Shown here piece by piece: positions 23-8,992 of a stretch of DNA of 39,631 nt. The notes below the pieces were generated by a model. It made no database searches, was not told the origin of the DNA, and saw only the letters and a list, made by a program, of their open reading frames with translations. The stretch comes from a virus: positions 1 to 39,631 of the IMG/VR virus record IMGVR_UViG_3300047548_000098, one strand, 5' to 3'. Positions within the stretch are counted from its first letter, which is position 1, and every line of letters starts with the position of its first letter. Position numbers and translations under genes: made by a program.

Positions 23-397
23 ATGGCAGCCCCAAACTTACTCGCGCTTACTACCGGCTTAGGTAAAACAGCATACGCCACGCCGTCAACCACGGGAGCG
101 ACAACGCTGCTGTCTAATCCTGCTGGGTCTAACAAGGTGTTTAAGGTAAACCAGATTGTGGCTGCCAACGTAAACGGAACTTCCGCAGTGGACTGCACGG
201 TAACAATTAACTCTGCAGAGGCCGGTGGTGGCACAGCGTTTCCGATTGCTTCCACCATTGCTGTCCCGGCAGACGCCTCGCTGATCGTAACCGACAAGAC
301 GACCGCTATCTATCTGGAAGAAGACCGCAGCATCGTAGTGACATCTGGCACGGCAAACGGAATTACGTACTCTGCCTCGTATGAGGAGCTGTCATAA
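23..397 (+). CDS. Small virion structural protein, putative
   Basis: This 124-residue protein has no signal peptide or membrane segment. It is rich in Thr, Ala, Val and Ser with alternating hydrophobic positions, which suggests an all-beta fold. The ATG at 23 follows an AAGGA ribosome binding site at 12-16. It opens the late-gene run and sits directly upstream of the tail-appendage block. Size, composition and position fit a decoration or tail-associated protein of the kind common in aquatic phages, but I recognise no diagnostic motif. A structural role is inferred from context; the exact role is unknown. Confidence 0.6.
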   Translation: MAAPNLLALTTGLGKTAYATPSTTGATTLLSNPAGSNKVFKVNQIVAANVNGTSAVDCTVTINSAEAGGGTAFPIASTIAVPADASLIVTDKTTAIYLEEDRSIVVTSGTANGITYSASYEELS

Positions 398-955: not shown

Positions 956-2083
956 ATGAGCATGCGCTACAAAGGCGGCTTCATACAGGCATTTTTTGAC
1001 CCGTTGCAACCGGGCACGCCGGAACCTGCGTTATTTACGTGGGGTATAAACCAAGCCGGACAACTTGGTCAGAACGATAGGGTGTATAAATCATCCCCAA
1101 CACAAGTTGGATCAGCGACTTGGGCAACTATTTTTCTTAGTGGTAATTATAGTTCGCTTGCCATAAGTTCAAACGGCTCTTTGTGGTCGTGGGGGGAAAA
1201 TAATACTGGGCAGTTAGGCACTAATAATACTGTTTATAGGTCATCACCGGTTCAAATTGGTGCGCTCACTAATTGGGTTAGTGTAGTCGGAGGGTTGTCT
1301 GCATCGTCGGCAGCCATAAAATCAGACAATACATTGTGGACATGGGGTGGAAATAGCGGCGGTGAACTTGGTTTAAACGATAGAGCGTTCAGGTCTTCGC
1401 CCACTCAAGTCGGGAGCCAAACAAACTGGTCTTCTGTAAGATCGGGCCAAAACGGCACGGTCTCCATAAAAACCGATGGAACAATGTGGTCTTGGGGGGG
1501 CGGAAGTTACGGTCAGTTGGGTCAAGGCAACGTTATTCATCGGTCTTCACCGGTTCAGATTGGCGCTTTAGCTACATGGAAAAACGTATCCGGCGGTGTG
1601 TTTAACTTTACAGCGACTCGAACCGATGGAACAATGTGGTCTTGGGGGCTTAATAGTTTTGGTGAATTGGGTATAAATATTTCAGGCGGATCACGATCTT
1701 CACCGGTTCAGATTGGTGCTTTAACAACTTGGCTAGAAGTTAGTTCTAACGGATATACTTCGATTGCCAGAAGAAATGACGGGACTATTTGGTCTTGGGG
1801 TCAAAATCAGTTTGGTCAATTAGGGCAAAATGACACTGTAAGAAGATCTTCACCGGTTCAAATTGGTACGCAAACAGATTGGTCAAAAATTTCGTGTGGC
1901 TATTGGAATGGAGCTGCTATTAAATCTAACGGCACACTTTGGGTGTGGGGTCAGAATAGTTTTGGCCAACTTGGACAAAAAAATACTATTTATAGATCAT
2001 CTCCAGTTCAGGTCGGCGCGTTATCAACTTGGCTGACAGTATCTGCTGGAAAGTATTCAACTGCAGCAATCCTAAACACATAA
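956..2083 (+). CDS. RCC1-repeat beta-propeller protein A, putative tail appendage or adhesin
   Basis: The 375 residues hold seven tandem RCC1-type repeats of about 50 residues from ~residue 30 to the end. Each has a W(S/T)WG...GQLG core followed by RSSPVQIGAL and a conserved Trp. Seven repeats are what a closed RCC1 propeller needs. The N-terminus reads MSMRYKGGFI, which matches the start of the third paralogue at 5505 (MSTRFPGGFI) position for position and probably anchors it to the virion. I chose the ATG at 956, with AAGGAG just upstream at 943-948, over the TTG at 911 that lies inside the endonuclease gene. RCC1 proteins are best known as eukaryotic nucleotide-exchange factors, but propellers are general binding scaffolds; here a surface or receptor-binding role is inferred from the anchor and the neighbouring genes. 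The DNA is AT-richer than the structural genes. Confidence 0.8.
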   Translation: MSMRYKGGFIQAFFDPLQPGTPEPALFTWGINQAGQLGQNDRVYKSSPTQVGSATWATIFLSGNYSSLAISSNGSLWSWGENNTGQLGTNNTVYRSSPVQIGALTNWVSVVGGLSASSAAIKSDNTLWTWGGNSGGELGLNDRAFRSSPTQVGSQTNWSSVRSGQNGTVSIKTDGTMWSWGGGSYGQLGQGNVIHRSSPVQIGALATWKNVSGGVFNFTATRTDGTMWSWGLNSFGELGINISGGSRSSPVQIGALTTWLEVSSNGYTSIARRNDGTIWSWGQNQFGQLGQNDTVRRSSPVQIGTQTDWSKISCGYWNGAAIKSNGTLWVWGQNSFGQLGQKNTIYRSSPVQVGALSTWLTVSAGKYSTAAILNT

Positions 2084-2093
2084 GGAACACGTC

Positions 2094-3257
2094 ATGGCAC
2101 AGTGGAAACAATACTCTGGCGTGTGGACCAGACAGTCTCAGATGCAAGCAGCCGGTGCAGCTAATTGGCCGGGTGTGGTTATTGGCAATACGTTGTTTAG
2201 CTGGGGGTTTAACACCGATGGACAATTAGGGCAAAACAACCTTGTTTATTTATCATCCCCTGTTCAAGTCGGCGCGTTGACAAACTGGAACAATATTGCG
2301 TCTGGAAATTATAGCACTGTTGCAACAAAAACAGACGGGACAATTTGGTCGTGGGGGTCAAACGGTAGCGGGATATTAGGTCAAAATGATAATGTCAAAA
2401 GATCGTCCCCAGTACAAATTGGCGCATTAGCAACATGGCTTGGTGTTTCTTGCGGTGCATATTTTACAATGGCCACGAAAACTAACGGTGCATTATGGTC
2501 TTGGGGCAACAATGCTAATGGTCAATTAGGAAATAATAGTATTGCAAACGCATCATCCCCAGTTCAAGTCGGTGCATTAACGACATGGATTAATGCTGAA
2601 TGTTTACAGACAGCGACTCTAGCCATTAAAACTGACGGTACATTATGGGCTTGGGGCAATAATGGTAATGGTCAATTAGGTGACAACACTACTATAAATA
2701 GATCGTCCCCAGTACAAATTGGAGCATTAACAACATGGTCTAACATTGCAGGCGGCCAAAATCATGCAATAATGTTAAAGGCAGATGGTACTTTATGGGG
2801 TAGCGGAAACAATATATATGGCCAACTTGGTCAAAATAGCGTCGTATATAAATCATCGCCAACTCAAGTTGGATCATTAACAACATGGTCAAAAGCCGCC
2901 TGCGGTCTAAGTCATACAGTATCCATAAAAACAGATGGAACTTTATGGGCATGGGGGCGAAATAACAGCGGTCAATTAGGGGATAACACTATTGCATATA
3001 GATCATCCCCAGTACAAATTGGAGCATTAACAACGTGGTCTAAAGTGGGGTGTTCTCAAAATACAACTTTAGCTATAAAAACTGATGGTGCGTTATGGGC
3101 ATGGGGTGCTAACACCGGAGGTCAGTTGGGTCAAAGCAATACTACAAACAAATCATCACCTGTTCAGGTTGGTTTGCTTACTAGCTGGTCCAATATCGCA
3201 AGAGGCCCAATTGCAGGGCATACTATAGTTACTCAAACTGCGTACGTGCCCGGTTAA
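2094..3257 (+). CDS. RCC1-repeat beta-propeller protein B, putative tail appendage or adhesin
   Basis: This 387-residue paralogue of the preceding gene also has seven RCC1-type repeats (W-S/A-WG...GQLG...SSPVQxGALTTW), running from ~residue 32 to ~375. Its N-terminal anchor differs: GVWTRQSQMQAA...WPG, which resembles the second half of the anchor of paralogue C (GVWTLEQAGYY...WP). The ATG at 2094 is preceded by AAGGA overlapping the end of protein A. Many repeats are near-identical in DNA as well as protein, so the three genes could recombine with one another. The N-terminal anchor and clustering suggest a virion-attached binding protein; no enzymatic motif is visible. Confidence 0.8.
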   Translation: MAQWKQYSGVWTRQSQMQAAGAANWPGVVIGNTLFSWGFNTDGQLGQNNLVYLSSPVQVGALTNWNNIASGNYSTVATKTDGTIWSWGSNGSGILGQNDNVKRSSPVQIGALATWLGVSCGAYFTMATKTNGALWSWGNNANGQLGNNSIANASSPVQVGALTTWINAECLQTATLAIKTDGTLWAWGNNGNGQLGDNTTINRSSPVQIGALTTWSNIAGGQNHAIMLKADGTLWGSGNNIYGQLGQNSVVYKSSPTQVGSLTTWSKAACGLSHTVSIKTDGTLWAWGRNNSGQLGDNTIAYRSSPVQIGALTTWSKVGCSQNTTLAIKTDGALWAWGANTGGQLGQSNTTNKSSPVQVGLLTSWSNIARGPIAGHTIVTQTAYVPG

Positions 3258-3291: not shown

Positions 3292-5061
3292 ATGAAAAAC
3301 ATCTACTTCCTATCCGGATTGCCGCGTTCCGGCAGCACAGTTCTCGCGGCCATTCTTAACCAGCATCCAAGTCTGCATGCGTCGGCTACGTCCGGCCTGT
3401 TAGACATTCTGGTTGGCACCCTACGCGCTTGGGCGGACGCTATGTCTGTTCAGGCGCAGCCAGATAAAGAGGCCGCAGAGAAGGAGATCCAAAAGATTCT
3501 CCGCAATATCTGCGAGACTAAGTACGAGCACATTGATAAGCCAGTCATCCTTGATAAAGCGCGTGGTTGGGCGTCAGACGTAAACATTCGCACGATGGCC
3601 ATGGTGCTGGGTCACAAGCCTAAGATTGTGGCGACCGTTCGTAACATCCCTGACTGCGCGGCGTCATTTGTACGGGTAGCAAAACCTGAAGATGAGAACG
3701 AATTCTGTCGTGATTCTGAGCTTATTAACCATCTCAAAGAGTCATATCAAACCCTAGAGACTGGCTATTCATTTGCCCCTGAGTGCATCCTGTGCGTGGA
3801 CTACGACGAACTAATTGCCGATCCGATTGCACAATTGCGCCGGGTAGAAGAGTTTCTGGAGCTTGAACCGTTTGACGGGTACGACGTTACTAAGATCGAC
3901 GGCACCAGTTTGAAAGAGCTTGACGAGGAAGTCTGGCAGGTTAAAGGCTTGCATGACATTAAGCCTGAGCTAAAGCGTTACTCCAACTCTGCGGACACCA
4001 AACAACTGCTCGGTCGGTCATACGATCAGTTCCTGCAGCCACGCTTCTGGCTTGGCGAAAAGGTATCAAGTCGTCCGATCCACAAGCTGGACATGCAGCT
4101 CGCTGCTGGTCTGATGGGTAACTTTGAAGAAGGCTGGAAGCTCGCACAAGAGATCGAGCGCGAAGAGCCTTGGAATAACCGAGCTGCGTTTAATCGTGGT
4201 TGGTATCGGATGTGGAATGGCAACCTTCTGGCCGGATCTCAGGATATGTTCCGTGGCCGCATCGAAAAGGTTTACGGCAATGAGCCGCCTAAAGTGCCGA
4301 CTCCAATGTGGGACGGCGAGTCTAAAGGCGTGATCTTGCTTAACCTTGAAGGTGGGTTTGGCGATCAGATCCACGGCGCTGGGTTTATCCGCTACATTGT
4401 AGACAAGGGCTGTCAGGTTATTGTTGCCTGCTCTGGTCAGCTTGCCACACTGTTCCGCGATATCCCGGGCGTTCTGGCTGTGGTGCAGCACGAGGCTATG
4501 TTTGGTGTCGTGCATGACTTCTGGGTGCCAAGTATGTCCGCCGTGCTGCCGTTAAAGCTCGAATACAAAGACGTACGCGGTGGCGCTTACATCAGCAAGC
4601 CTGACGTACCGAAAGGCAAAAAGAAACGCATTGGGTTACGTTGGCAGGGCAACCCCCAGTTTGAGCACGAGCAACACCGACTGTTCCCGCCGCAGCGTTT
4701 CTTTGATGCAGTGGGTGGGAGCGACGCCGAATACGTTTCCCTGCAACGGGATGAGGGCGCAGAGAGCCGCCCGTACTGGGTCAAAGAAGTTCCTCTCAAC
4801 TACTGGGAAGAGACTCGTGCGGCAATTGCGTCATGCGATCTAGTGATTACATCATGCACCTCTGTAGCCCACCTATCGGCGGCCATGGGTGTGCCAACAT
4901 GGATTATCGTGCCTGTTCTACCGTACTACCTGTGGGCAAAACCCGGATGCTCGACCGAATGGTACGATAGCGTTAAACTGTTCCGACAGCAGGTTCACGG
5001 CGATTGGGACCATCCTATGAAACAAGTAGCTGAACAACTTAAGGAGTTTATAAATGGCTGA
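3292..5061 (+). CDS. Sulfotransferase-glycosyltransferase fusion protein
   Basis: This 589-residue protein has two enzyme-like halves. Residues ~1-250 are a PAPS-dependent sulfotransferase: the 5'-phosphosulfate loop reads SGLPRSGSTVLAAIL at ~6-20, and VATVRNIPDCAASFVRV at ~115-131 matches the 3'-phosphate-binding R..P....S motif. After a short helical TPR-like linker (~265-330), residues ~350-585 resemble GT-B enzymes of the TPR-linked/GT9 type: GGFGDQIHGAGFIRYI, then GLRWQGNP with a basic HRLFPPQRFF segment, then CDLVITSCTSVAHLSAAMGV. The predicted activity is transfer of sulfate and of a sugar to a glycan or protein. It lies between RCC1 genes B and C, so its substrate could be host surface glycans or virion adhesins; that is inference. 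The next gene overlaps its end by 8 bases. Confidence 0.85.
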   Translation: MKNIYFLSGLPRSGSTVLAAILNQHPSLHASATSGLLDILVGTLRAWADAMSVQAQPDKEAAEKEIQKILRNICETKYEHIDKPVILDKARGWASDVNIRTMAMVLGHKPKIVATVRNIPDCAASFVRVAKPEDENEFCRDSELINHLKESYQTLETGYSFAPECILCVDYDELIADPIAQLRRVEEFLELEPFDGYDVTKIDGTSLKELDEEVWQVKGLHDIKPELKRYSNSADTKQLLGRSYDQFLQPRFWLGEKVSSRPIHKLDMQLAAGLMGNFEEGWKLAQEIEREEPWNNRAAFNRGWYRMWNGNLLAGSQDMFRGRIEKVYGNEPPKVPTPMWDGESKGVILLNLEGGFGDQIHGAGFIRYIVDKGCQVIVACSGQLATLFRDIPGVLAVVQHEAMFGVVHDFWVPSMSAVLPLKLEYKDVRGGAYISKPDVPKGKKKRIGLRWQGNPQFEHEQHRLFPPQRFFDAVGGSDAEYVSLQRDEGAESRPYWVKEVPLNYWEETRAAIASCDLVITSCTSVAHLSAAMGVPTWIIVPVLPYYLWAKPGCSTEWYDSVKLFRQQVHGDWDHPMKQVAEQLKEFING

Positions 5062-5494
5062 CGTTATTGCAACAGGTTTTTGGATCCGCGCCAAGGGCGA
5101 TCAAGTTCTGGACGTATGGGATTACAAACCGTCACAAGGCATTCTTGACACACAAGGTGGCTGGCGCGAAGCCATCCAGATCACGCCGGAAGTTAATCCG
5201 ATGCGTGAATATATCAATGGGCACGTCATTGATCTGGCACCGACCCCGGCTGAGATTCGCTGGCAGATTGGCTACCTGACCGTGGACGATCGCAAGGGTA
5301 TGCTGATTTCAGAGGCTAACAACACATATCAGCAAGTCATCACGACCGAGATGAACAAAGAAACTGACCCGGATCCTGATTCGCATATGGATATGGCAGT
5401 TGTGCAGGCGGCTAATACGGTTTACACAGAGCGCGTTGCACAGATCAACGCCTGTACCACCCAAGAAGAACTCGACGCAATCTGGAACCTGTAA
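5054..5494 (+). CDS. Uncharacterised protein between the sulfotransferase and RCC1 gene C
   Basis: I do not recognise this 146-residue protein. The first ~70 residues are rich in Trp, Asp and Pro (for example FWIRAKGDQVLDVWDYKP), and the last ~70 look helical. It has no signal peptide, membrane segment or cysteine motif. The start overlaps the end of the sulfotransferase gene by 8 bases, with AAGGAG upstream at 5041-5046, so the two are probably translationally coupled. The stop is 10 bases before RCC1 gene C. Position next to a tail-appendage gene would suit a fibre-assembly chaperone, but no sequence motif supports this. Confidence 0.7.
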   Translation: MADVIATGFWIRAKGDQVLDVWDYKPSQGILDTQGGWREAIQITPEVNPMREYINGHVIDLAPTPAEIRWQIGYLTVDDRKGMLISEANNTYQQVITTEMNKETDPDPDSHMDMAVVQAANTVYTERVAQINACTTQEELDAIWNL

Positions 5495-5504
5495 GGGGTA
5501 GGCT

Positions 5505-6734
5505 ATGTCTACAAGATTTCCCGGAGGTTTTATCAATCGCTCCGCCCCTGTAGTTGTTGGTCCAAGCGCAACCTCCGGCGGCTCTGCCCCGGGGGTGTGG
5601 ACGCTCGAACAGGCCGGGTACTATCGAAGTAAAAGTCAATGGCCGATACCGCCGTCATATGAAATATACGCGTGGGGATATAACTCGGCCTATCAAGTTG
5701 GTGATGGCACGACAGTAGCAAGATCGTCACCGGTAATGATTGGAACGGTACCTTTTACACATATTGCGGCTGGTTTCGGTAGCGCTGGTTTAACTCAAGA
5801 CGGCAAGGTATATAACTGGGGTAGAAATTCGGATGGAGCTTTTGGCACAAATAATAGAACAACTAGATCAACACCGACATTAAATAATGTTTTCATGGGT
5901 GTAAAATCAGCAGCATCACAAGCAAATACAATGGCTTTTGTGAAATATGATGGCACGTTATGGACTTGCGGTGAAAATACGCTTGGTCAACTTGGCGTGA
6001 GCGACACAGTAAATAGATCTTCTCCTGTTCAAATTGGTGTTTTAACGACATGGTCAACGGTATCCGGAAATTATTTTTCTTTTCTGGCAACCAAATCCGA
6101 TGGAACGCTCTGGGGTTGGGGATATAATAATAAAGGAGAATTAGGAGTTGGAGACGAAATCGCAAGATCATCCCCTGTTCAAATTGGCGCCGATACAAAC
6201 TGGTCAAAAGTAGCATGTGGGAGTTCTTCATTAGCAATAAAAACAGATGGCACGCTATGGTCTTGGGGCAATAACGGCGATGGTCAACTTGGTAACAATA
6301 CAACTGCTAATAGTTCGTCCCCAGCTCAAGTTGGAGCGTTGACAAATTGGAGTGAAGTTTCCACATGTGGGAACGTATCAAGTGGAAGTTGTGTTGCTAT
6401 TAAAACAAACAATACAGCTTGGGCTTGGGGCGTTAATGGTTCTGGTCAATTGGGATTAAACTCAATTGTCAGTAAGTCGTCGCCAACCCAAATTGGCGCA
6501 TTAACGATATGGGAAAAAGCCGAAAATAACGATACTACATCAAGTTGTTTTTTAAGAACCGATGGGACTATTTGGTCTTGCGGTGCGAATAATTTCGGGC
6601 AACTTGGTCAAAACGTTGAAAGTACGGTGAATAGATCTTCTCCTGTCCAAATCGGAACTGCTACAAATTGGGTAGATATTTTTACTTCAGGTTCAACTGC
6701 TAATATGTTTGCGGTATATGAAAAGTTTATTTAA
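5505..6734 (+). CDS. RCC1-repeat beta-propeller protein C, putative tail appendage or adhesin
   Basis: This 409-residue protein has the longest N-terminal anchor of the three (~residues 1-52): MSTRFPGGFI, a Gly/Ser/Pro linker, then APGVWTLEQAGYYRSKSQWP. That last motif is a hallmark of tail-appendage proteins in many aquatic phages, as I recall the family. Seven RCC1 repeats follow (~53-405); the first two are divergent (RSSPVMIG, RSTPTLNN), the other five canonical (RSSPVQIG). The ATG at 5505 follows AAGGGG at 5493-5498. The anchor combines elements found separately in paralogues A (GGFI) and B (GVWT...WP), which points to domain shuffling. A virion-attached binding role is inferred. Confidence 0.8.
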   Translation: MSTRFPGGFINRSAPVVVGPSATSGGSAPGVWTLEQAGYYRSKSQWPIPPSYEIYAWGYNSAYQVGDGTTVARSSPVMIGTVPFTHIAAGFGSAGLTQDGKVYNWGRNSDGAFGTNNRTTRSTPTLNNVFMGVKSAASQANTMAFVKYDGTLWTCGENTLGQLGVSDTVNRSSPVQIGVLTTWSTVSGNYFSFLATKSDGTLWGWGYNNKGELGVGDEIARSSPVQIGADTNWSKVACGSSSLAIKTDGTLWSWGNNGDGQLGNNTTANSSSPAQVGALTNWSEVSTCGNVSSGSCVAIKTNNTAWAWGVNGSGQLGLNSIVSKSSPTQIGALTIWEKAENNDTTSSCFLRTDGTIWSCGANNFGQLGQNVESTVNRSSPVQIGTATNWVDIFTSGSTANMFAVYEKFI

Positions 6735-6744
6735 CTCCTACGAC

Positions 6745-7410
6745 ATGGTGCCGTCTAAGGCATATATCATTCGTGTTGTAGGAAACGAAAACTCTGAAGC
6801 CTTAGCCAAGCGCTGCGCAGACTCTTGTGAAAAAGTCGAGCAGCCTTGGGAATACTGGGATGCGTATAATGGTCACGTTAACCCAGTGCAACCGCCAGAA
6901 CACCATCATCCGGCGCTGAACCTCATCAAGATCACGGACCACTACCTGACTCGTGGTGAGGTTGCTTGTGCGTTGTCACACATCAGTCTCTGGGTTAAGT
7001 GCGTAGAAGAAGACAAGCCGTTGGTGATTCTTGAGCATGACAGCGTTATGTTGCAGCCCTATACGCAGCATGCTGTGTTCAATTCGATCTGTTACCTTGG
7101 GTCTTACGAACAAGTCAAGCAGGGCTGGCAGGTGCTACCAACGCCTCCGCACGCATCCGAAGGCCCGAACTACCACTTCATTTGCCGCGCACATGCCTAC
7201 GCCATTGATCCTGCCGTAGCAAAGAACATGATCGCTCATGTAATTAAATATGGTATCAATGCGCCGCTGGACATTCTTTTGCGTGCAGACATTTTCCCGA
7301 TCCATCAGATGGGCGTTTTCGCGTATGATGAGAAGGGTTCTGAGACAACTATTCTTGGACGACCAAAACACGGGCGCAGAGCATTGCCCAACATAGATTT
7401 ATCTGACTAA
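6745..7410 (+). CDS. Glycosyltransferase, family 25 type
   Basis: About 221 residues from the ATG at 6745. The pattern is that of the GT25/LPS glycosyltransferase family: an N-terminal strand AYIIRVVGNENSEALAKRC, a WEYWDAYNG segment, then RGEVACALSHISLWVKCVEE and PLVILEHD, which corresponds to the G(E)..C..SH...w and (I/L)LE(D/H)D signature. A C-terminal HFICRAHAYAIDP stretch matches the family's conserved end region. Family members add hexoses to lipopolysaccharide or protein-linked glycans. A longer version could begin at ATG 6718 or TTG 6709, overlapping the RCC1 gene; none of these starts has a good ribosome binding site, so the start is uncertain. Confidence 0.75.
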   Translation: MVPSKAYIIRVVGNENSEALAKRCADSCEKVEQPWEYWDAYNGHVNPVQPPEHHHPALNLIKITDHYLTRGEVACALSHISLWVKCVEEDKPLVILEHDSVMLQPYTQHAVFNSICYLGSYEQVKQGWQVLPTPPHASEGPNYHFICRAHAYAIDPAVAKNMIAHVIKYGINAPLDILLRADIFPIHQMGVFAYDEKGSETTILGRPKHGRRALPNIDLSD

Positions 7411-7419
7411 GGGGAAGTC

Positions 7420-8004
7420 ATGCAATTTAATACGGTGTTCCACGATTACACCGCAATGAGCGTTAACTGGCTCGTTCAACAATACGGTATTCCAAAAACG
7501 GTCATTGAGATCGGCGTGTTTGAGGGTCACACAACCTTTAACATGACCGCAATGCTGGCCCAGCAGTACAAAGACTACAAGCACTATGCAATTGACCCGC
7601 ACGCCGAATCGGACGATATCGAAGAAGATGTGGTGGCGAAGGCAGGCGATACATTCCGCGCTAATCTTGCTGAGTTTGAACTCAAAGACCACATCGAATA
7701 CATCAACGATTATTCTTGGAATGGCTTGATTGATCTGTATAAACGCGGCGTCAAGGCTGATCTAATCTATATCGACGGAGACCATCGCGCCGCTACCGTC
7801 ATGGAAGACCTGATCCTGTCGTTCAAACTGATCGACAAGGGCGGCATTATCCTGTGTGATGACTGCGTGGCTTGGTATAACGAGAAGCTGCAGAACACGC
7901 CCAAGCTGGCCGTAGATGCGTTTATCCATTGCTACTGGGACAAGATTGACATGTTGCGCCTACCGCACGGCGCTCAGCTTGCTTTCGTTAAGAAATGCGA
8001 CTAA
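7420..8004 (+). CDS. Class I SAM-dependent methyltransferase
   Basis: This 194-residue protein has a Rossmann methyltransferase pattern. Motif I is VIEIGVFEGHTTFN (~26-39), the acidic end of strand 2 is in AIDPHAE (~58-64), and ADLIYIDGDHRAATVMEDL (~113-131) followed by GGIILCDDC resembles the Methyltransf_24 and cephalosporin-hydroxylase-like group. These enzymes often O-methylate sugars. The ATG at 7420 follows AAGGGGAAG. It sits between two glycosyltransferase genes and its end overlaps the next gene by 10 bases, so it is probably part of one glycan-tailoring operon. The substrate is unknown. Confidence 0.8.
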   Translation: MQFNTVFHDYTAMSVNWLVQQYGIPKTVIEIGVFEGHTTFNMTAMLAQQYKDYKHYAIDPHAESDDIEEDVVAKAGDTFRANLAEFELKDHIEYINDYSWNGLIDLYKRGVKADLIYIDGDHRAATVMEDLILSFKLIDKGGIILCDDCVAWYNEKLQNTPKLAVDAFIHCYWDKIDMLRLPHGAQLAFVKKCD

Positions 8005-8789
8005 CTGTAATTCTACGGACTTGCCTTAAGTCCAAGCTGGACGAAAATATAGCTGGTGAGTTTGTACGAATATGCGGCAAAGACCGCAGGGCAATGGTGC
8101 TAAAGTGCTTAAAATCCCTGTGCATCTCTATTAACAAGTCTTCCGCAGAAGTAAGCCTGCATATTCTGGACGACAACAGCGATGCCGGCTTCGTTGCTGA
8201 TATGCACGAAGTGGTAAAGCATTGCAAGGCTGATGTACAGATAACTACGCTACAGGCTCCGGAAGGCGTGCGGTCATTTAACCACTCGGCCTATGAGCAG
8301 TTCAGGTTAGCGTCAGAAGTGGACGGGTTGGTCTATTCCGTAGAGGATGACTACCTGCACGACGAGGATGCCATAGAGTCCATGCTAACGGCATACGCAA
8401 ATTTAAGTCACAGGTTTAAATTAGACAAGGTTGTGATTTTCCCATTTGACTGCCCATTCCGATACGAGGCTGGGCGCGAAGAACCGACTGTGTTATTGCA
8501 CGACGGGAAACGGTACTGGAGGCAGGTCGGCCACACGACCAATACATTCCTAACCCATGGAAAGTATATAAAAGAGCATTTCGATGTGTATTCCAAGCTG
8601 GCTTTAGAGTACCCAAATGTCAACGAAGCTCACACAATTAACCGTTTATACCGTGGTTTTAACAACATGAACGGGGTTCTGACCGTATTTAATCCAGTCC
8701 CATCAGTCGCTTACCACTTGTCATATGTCGAGCCAGTTGCTATAAAGACGGAAGCGCTTTGCTGGAATAACATCTGGAATAGCTTATGA
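7995..8789 (+). CDS. Glycosyltransferase, family 2-like (GT-A fold)
   Basis: This 264-residue protein begins MRLTVILRTCL, the first strand of a GT-A nucleotide-sugar fold. It continues with LHILDDNSDAGF at ~52-63 (the family's DD/DN position) and GLVYSVEDDYLHDEDA at ~111-126, where EDD takes the place of the DXD metal motif. Later residues fit an acceptor domain. Family members transfer sugars from UDP- or GDP-sugars to glycans. Its start overlaps the methyltransferase stop by 10 bases and its stop overlaps the holin start (ATGA), so it links the glycan block to the lysis cassette in one transcript. Confidence 0.75.
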   Translation: MRLTVILRTCLKSKLDENIAGEFVRICGKDRRAMVLKCLKSLCISINKSSAEVSLHILDDNSDAGFVADMHEVVKHCKADVQITTLQAPEGVRSFNHSAYEQFRLASEVDGLVYSVEDDYLHDEDAIESMLTAYANLSHRFKLDKVVIFPFDCPFRYEAGREEPTVLLHDGKRYWRQVGHTTNTFLTHGKYIKEHFDVYSKLALEYPNVNEAHTINRLYRGFNNMNGVLTVFNPVPSVAYHLSYVEPVAIKTEALCWNNIWNSL

Positions 8790-8992
8790 TGTACTTATAC
8801 CCAAACTGGAAAGAGATTGCCCGCCGTAGCTGGAGCCTGCGCTTCATTATTTTGGCGGGTATACTGTCTGGTCTTGAGGTAATTCTGCCATTCTTCTCAG
8901 ATGAAATCCCTCGTAATCTCTTTGCTGTTCTTAGCTTTGTGGCTGTATCTGCTGCTTTCGTGGCACGCCTAGTGGCTCAGAAAGGCATATAA
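8786..8992 (+). CDS. Putative holin, two membrane segments
   Basis: This 68-residue protein has a short charged N-terminus (YPNWKEIARRSWSLR), a first hydrophobic segment at ~18-37 and a second at ~45-62. This is a small class-II-like holin layout and resembles the phage holin family that starts with a Trp/Arg-rich N-terminus. It overlaps the preceding gene by ATGA and the endolysin gene by one base (TAATG). Immediate neighbourship with a GH24 endolysin and spanins supports the holin call; the sequence alone only shows a small double-spanning membrane protein. Confidence 0.75.
   Translation: MMYLYPNWKEIARRSWSLRFIILAGILSGLEVILPFFSDEIPRNLFAVLSFVAVSAAFVARLVAQKGI

Follow-up and report, generated by a model that had tools for sequence, protein, structure and literature searches.

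A predicted glycosylation and sulfation cassette coupled to RCC1 beta-propeller appendage genes in phages

The virus fragment IMGVR_UViG_3300047548_000098 of IMG/VR (39,631 nucleotides (nt); this whole stretch is hereafter called the window) interleaves, at positions 3292-8789, genes for RCC1 beta-propeller proteins with genes for a sulfotransferase-glycosyltransferase fusion (ST-GT9), a GT25 glycosyltransferase, a methyltransferase and a GT2-like glycosyltransferase. We favour, with a probability of about 0.68, the reading that this is a phage self-modification cassette, whose enzymes glycosylate, and probably sulfate, the phage's own RCC1 propellers. The core of the cassette is an RCC1 gene together with a GT9 domain that is usually fused to a sulfotransferase (ST), a chaperone-like gene and often GT25, while the methyltransferase and the GT2-like enzyme are optional.

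Viral contigs were fetched separately with ST-GT9, with the second RCC1 protein (RCC1b), with GT25 and with a virion stabilisation gene located outside the cassette. Open reading frames (ORFs) were called on the fetched loci and scored with iterated hidden Markov models (HMMs) seeded from the window; loci sharing identical proteins of at least 200 aa were collapsed, and the resulting co-occurrence counts carry no correction for phylogeny. Among the deduplicated viral loci with adequate flanks, RCC1 lies within 3 kb of the ST-GT9 relative in 27 of 27, and reciprocally GT9 lies within 3 kb of RCC1 relatives in 38 of 38 loci (ST in 32 of 38). GT25 loci contain RCC1 in 21 of 22 cases and GT9 in 22 of 22. 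Of the RCC1-less relatives retrieved through the stabilisation gene with at least 8 kb of upstream sequence, none of 24 contains RCC1 or any of five enzyme types. An earlier note on this DNA had proposed that the enzymes are coupled to the RCC1 genes, a claim that would fall if the two occurred independently in related phages; the counts reveal no such independence, and co-occurrence at or close to 100% in independent samplings strongly supports the coupling.

In 76 of the 99 loci with both RCC1 and GT9, ST and GT9 form one fused protein, and two of these 76 encode an additional stand-alone ST; in five loci the ST is a separate neighbour, and in 18 it was undetected. Accessory genes were counted in the 62 loci whose downstream sequence extends for 5 kb or more: the family of a 146-aa protein occurs in 44, GT25 in 32, the methyltransferase in 14 and GT2 in 12, with all four present in six. 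A further pattern is RCC1 with GT9 and the chaperone-like gene, devoid of GT25, methyltransferase and GT2 (16 loci), and 10 more loci have none of the four accessories. The previous suggestion that the four enzymes jointly build a single sulfated, methylated glycan is thus supported only in part: ST-GT9 and GT25 belong to the conserved part, and the other two enzymes are optional. Gene order, RCC1 copy number (~1-8), the state of the ST fusion and the accessories all vary; yet the RCC1-GT9 pair persists, including in divergent copies with 27-34% identity in the GT domain.

The RCC1 proteins begin with short conserved anchors, such as MPNYSGxWTxxxQMQAxxxxxWP, and in related phages the same anchors head proteins with Fn3, glycine-rich, SPRY or other domains. 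The anchor alignment yielded no searchable stretch when made into a profile, and a single 51-aa anchor sequence from an RCC1-less phage was used instead as the query for control loci, of which 67 were left after collapsing. GT9 is found in none of the 62 loci without RCC1, versus four of the five with RCC1, the fifth ending right after its RCC1 gene (Fisher p ~7e-6, uncorrected for relatedness); a short stretch matching ST occurs in one of the 62 (L395). The layout of RCC1 and non-RCC1 loci is often alike, with a small protein, two anchored proteins, a small gene, another anchored protein, lysis and the stabilisation gene. Since GT9 is absent where the same anchor bears other domains, the enzymes follow the RCC1 domain and not the phage backbone. 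This domain-swap control is the strongest evidence that the enzymes serve RCC1 rather than host lipopolysaccharide (LPS); of the two targets suggested in the earlier note, the propellers are hence better supported and host LPS is less favoured.

The pair is also encountered outside this group. Among isolated cyanophages, S-SRM01 and BUCT-ZZ01 both have RCC1 directly next to a GT9 domain, and in the marine virus AG-345-E08 RCC1 lies near one; the three are very different phages. RCC1 stands beside GT9 in four bacterial-assembly contigs as well (Methylobacter, Methylocucumis, Patescibacteria and Bdellovibrionales), which may represent prophage or phage sequence. In S-SRM01, the RCC1 genes are followed by a long glycan cluster (L193:9699-23758) with a sulfotransferase, glycosyltransferases and a nucleotide-sugar epimerase.

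ST-GT9 (589 aa; 3292..5061, plus strand) matches the sulfotransferase family PF13469 (Sulfotransfer_3; E 2e-17, 64.6 bits against a cut-off of 27). Its AlphaFold2 model, with a mean predicted confidence (pLDDT) of 90, comprises a sulfotransferase domain (~1-262), TPR-like helices (~263-332) and a C-terminal domain of GT9 heptosyltransferase fold (~333-589), and conservation spans the full length in an alignment of 39 sequences. In model comparison, the ST domain superposes on human TPST1 with a Z score of 19.2 (244 residues aligned, 3.9 A, ~13% identity). The motifs for 3'-phosphoadenosine-5'-phosphosulfate (PAPS), namely PRSGST of the 5'-phosphosulfate-binding loop (5'-PSB) and R117/S125 of the 3'-phosphate-binding site (3'-PSB), are invariant in all 39 sequences. 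The GT domain finds its closest folds in WaaC (Z 16.4), WaaF (15.9), 3tov (15.3) and TibC (15.1), and G357 and D358 of its GxGD loop and the C-terminal His H527 are likewise invariant (39/39); we take these to be equivalent to WaaC catalytic residues.

GT25 (230 aa; 6718..7410, plus strand) scores 59.3 bits against PF01755 (E 6e-16; cut-off 24), matches the solved GT25 structure 8xc8 (E 7e-6), and has an EHD motif that is invariant in 20 of 20 sequences; agreement with relatives favours its start at ATG 6718 over TTG 6709. Downstream of GT25, several relatives carry a conserved gene of ~236 aa starting MIPKKVHLSWK (L113:2792-3502, L138:4054-4761), which presumably resembles GT32-type glycosyltransferases. 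The class I S-adenosylmethionine-dependent methyltransferase (Methyltransf_24; 7420..8004, plus strand) matches PF13578 (E 3e-17); a pattern scan found no relatives of it, and an HMM applied to the fetched loci gave 42. The GT2-like enzyme (7995..8789, plus strand) itself has no Pfam match; in its family alignment of 11 proteins, however, seven hit PF00535 (best E 1e-7) and an EDD motif is almost invariant. The four enzymes named in the earlier note are thus borne out at their positions, three by their own family scores well above chance and the GT2-like enzyme, as a probable assignment, via its relatives only. That note had left unnamed two further genes of the interval, the third RCC1 gene and the gene of the 146-aa conserved protein (5054..5494, plus strand). 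The predicted model of the latter (pLDDT 96.8) has as BFVD neighbours DUF4376 proteins and proteins annotated 'phage tail assembly chaperone', one of them from S-SRM01, while solved structures gave weak coiled-coil matches only; it is a probable tail or tail-fibre assembly chaperone.

The three RCC1 proteins, all on the plus strand, each contain seven PF00415 stretches and score above the family cut-off, with E values of 6e-58 to 5e-73: RCC1a (375 aa; 956..2083; E 3e-62; anchor MSMRYKGGFI), RCC1b (387 aa; 2094..3257; E 5e-73; anchor YSGVWTRQSQMQAAGAANWP) and RCC1c (409 aa; 5505..6734; E 6e-58; anchor GGSAPGVWTLEQAGYYRSKSQWP). For RCC1a, ATG 956 agrees with relatives better than TTG 911. The RCC1b-type anchor is also found on non-RCC1 proteins, and the HMM of the RCC1c anchor matches 145 RCC1 and 10 non-RCC1 ORFs. 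Wholesale swapping of RCC1, Fn3, glycine-rich and SPRY/DUF7483 domains behind the same N-terminal anchors near lysis was observed in L060, L032 and L360-L439. All three proteins match PHROG 4219 (phrog_4219), and RCC1 proteins of this family were detected by mass spectrometry in particles of Septuagintavirus W70 (PMC11370258), as was one RCC1 protein in particles of Cronobacter phage GAP32 (PMC5259590). By analogy, the RCC1 proteins of the window's phage group would sit on the virion. Phage RCC1 proteins of the type encoded at 956-3257 and 5505-6734 are filed in PHROGs under DNA metabolism, as regulators of chromosome condensation, though they are virion-borne in other phages.

No acceptor could be identified at residue level. 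A blade signature, [ST][ST]PxQ..(6)W, occurs in 1601 of 1791 RCC1 blades in GT9-linked loci versus 0 of 7 complete blades in unlinked phages. As the unlinked set is very small and comes from more distant phages, and the repeat model was built from the window, the signature counts only as a candidate acceptor site or recognition motif. Aphanizomenon phage Yong-DA (L276) was dropped from this comparison, as its region resembles host polysaccharide genes.

These elements suggest the following scheme. Three virion appendage proteins would share short N-terminal anchors and, in the window's lineage, display RCC1 beta-propellers. The cassette would be expressed late, and in the cytoplasm of the host cell ST-GT9 would place a sugar from a nucleotide sugar on the propellers, while its ST domain would probably add a sulfate group, drawn from host PAPS, to either the protein or the sugar. 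GT25 would probably lengthen the glycan, which in some phages GT2 and the methyltransferase may tailor, and the 146-aa protein would probably assist appendage assembly. The benefit to the phage may lie in adhesion that is tuned or shielded.

Several observations weigh against this reading. That the RCC1 proteins are modified and serve as acceptor, in which order and by what chemistry the enzymes act, and what the phage gains are all deduced from the genes. Distant phages with RCC1, namely of Clostridioides, Erwinia, Escherichia (jumbo), Brevibacillus, Listeria, Bacillus, Marinobacter, Pseudomonas and Helicobacter, show neither GT9 nor ST nor GT25 in the 5-8 kb of flank examined; because of this, the enzymes are not required by RCC1 as such, and the coupling is specific to the RCC1 subfamily of the window. 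An ST-GT9 relative without detected RCC1 occurs on a contig of a Woesearchaeota (archaeal) metagenome-assembled genome (L280:4664-7051). The fold nearest to the GT domain, WaaC, belongs to an LPS enzyme. Furthermore, the catalytic glutamate of the TPSTs (Glu99 of TPST2) is not kept: a profile alignment places there T33, a threonine invariant in 39 of 39 sequences. ST-GT9 was for this reason rejected as a TPST despite its fold, and tyrosine sulfation by the TPST mechanism is unsupported; sulfate may go to a sugar.

This replacement bears on the alternative that ST-GT9 modifies protein only, for instance by tyrosine sulfation and a single sugar, while GT25, GT2 and the methyltransferase have an unrelated target. 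Protein-tyrosine sulfotransferases are indeed the best-scoring structures for the ST domain, and the loci with RCC1 and GT9 but no GT25, methyltransferase or GT2 fit such a scheme; with the glutamate lost and GT25 so regularly linked to RCC1, we consider it unlikely. We find it rather more improbable that the enzymes alter host LPS or capsule, for superinfection exclusion or receptor masking, with adjacency to RCC1 a matter of regulatory convenience. Apart from the WaaC-like fold, this alternative draws on the membership of GT9, GT25 and GT2 in classic LPS-type families, on the position of the enzyme genes directly before lysis, and on the viral scan with the GT2-like enzyme, which returned one close relative, from a phage region where no RCC1 gene was detected (L192). 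It is at odds with the absence of GT9 both from the RCC1-less tail-gene relatives and from the same-anchor loci with other domains, and with the recurrence of the RCC1-GT9 pair in unrelated cyanophages; moreover, exclusion enzymes in a late adhesin operon would presumably offer little gain to a lytic phage.

The alternative to which we give the least weight holds that RCC1 and the enzymes form a selfish or passively inherited ancestral block that moves as a whole and in which the enzymes do not act on RCC1. Homing endonuclease genes in or beside the block at many loci, the modularity of phage late regions and the uncorrected shared ancestry in our counts would agree with it, but a block of this kind does not readily explain why RCC1 and GT9 stay together while order, copy number, fusion state and accessories change, or why the pair is kept at such low GT-domain identity. 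The endonuclease genes, of GIY-YIG/NUMOD3 type, lie at varying sites (400-951 in the window; also L196, L197, L208, L209, L235 and L250), and might aid spread of the cassette.

The cassette genes form a single plus-strand run free of internal stops, with intergenic gaps of -17 to +34 nt, in agreement with the tight packing described in the earlier note. Its placement of the enzymes just before lysis is likewise borne out: the next genes encode a 68-aa DUF7940 protein (8786..8992, plus strand; PF25612, E 4e-16), which marks the downstream boundary and by its position may be holin-like, and then a lysozyme. At the other end, a small protein, sm23 (23..397, plus strand), belongs to a family whose HMM matches lie 5' of anchored genes whether or not the locus has RCC1, usually as the gene immediately 5' of the first anchored appendage protein.

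Glycosylation of phage-particle proteins is known from very few cases. In mycobacteriophages Che8 and Rita, the virion is glycosylated and the capsid is the reported target (Freeman et al. 2023, as relayed in PMC11256854). These phages and the cassette have phage-encoded glycosyltransferases in common and, as predicted for the cassette, glycans on virion proteins; they differ in that the target of the cassette would be the RCC1 appendages, and that it employs other enzyme families and a sulfotransferase. TibC is a heptosyltransferase that glycosylates the adhesins TibA and AIDA-I (PMC4358343). TibC and Aah belong to the bacterial autotransporter heptosyltransferase (BAHT) group, which is marked by an iron-binding cysteine finger, a dodecameric assembly and ADP-heptose as donor. 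Like them, ST-GT9 would be a heptosyltransferase-fold enzyme dedicated to a partner adhesin, and judging by fold the ST-GT9/RCC1 arrangement may work like TibC-TibA, in which one enzyme serves one repeat adhesin; the phage partner would, however, be a propeller protein, its GT carries a fused sulfotransferase, and the sequences are only ~10% identical. ST-GT9 shares the fold and PAPS motifs of TPST1/2, but is phage-encoded, fused to a GT and altered at the catalytic position. The W70 and GAP32 proteins, which are found in phage particles, share RCC1 repeats and the same PHROG with those of the window, but are of another subfamily, and the RCC1 genes of PBECO4 and Hallingskeid have no GT9-type cassette beside them.

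Precedents thus exist both for dedicated glycosylation of adhesins and for glycosylation of phage virions, and what appears new is a system that unites the two with a sulfotransferase and ties them to RCC1 propellers: in the papers searched, nothing relevant linked RCC1 to these glycosyltransferases and sulfotransferases in phages, consistent with the earlier note, whose author knew of no phage system described with these enzymes. More tentatively, and with slightly less than an even chance in our estimation, the cassette represents a widespread modular glycosylation and sulfation island for RCC1 appendages, built on a bifunctional ST-GT core, in which case the propellers would be the first sulfated glycoprotein adhesins of phage particles.

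If the reading is correct, the presence of the cassette with only one display domain would define a concrete enzyme-substrate pair. It would also account for the sulfotransferases and LPS-type glycosyltransferases in many aquatic phages, and would give the phage RCC1 proteins, despite their present PHROGs category, a role at the virion surface.

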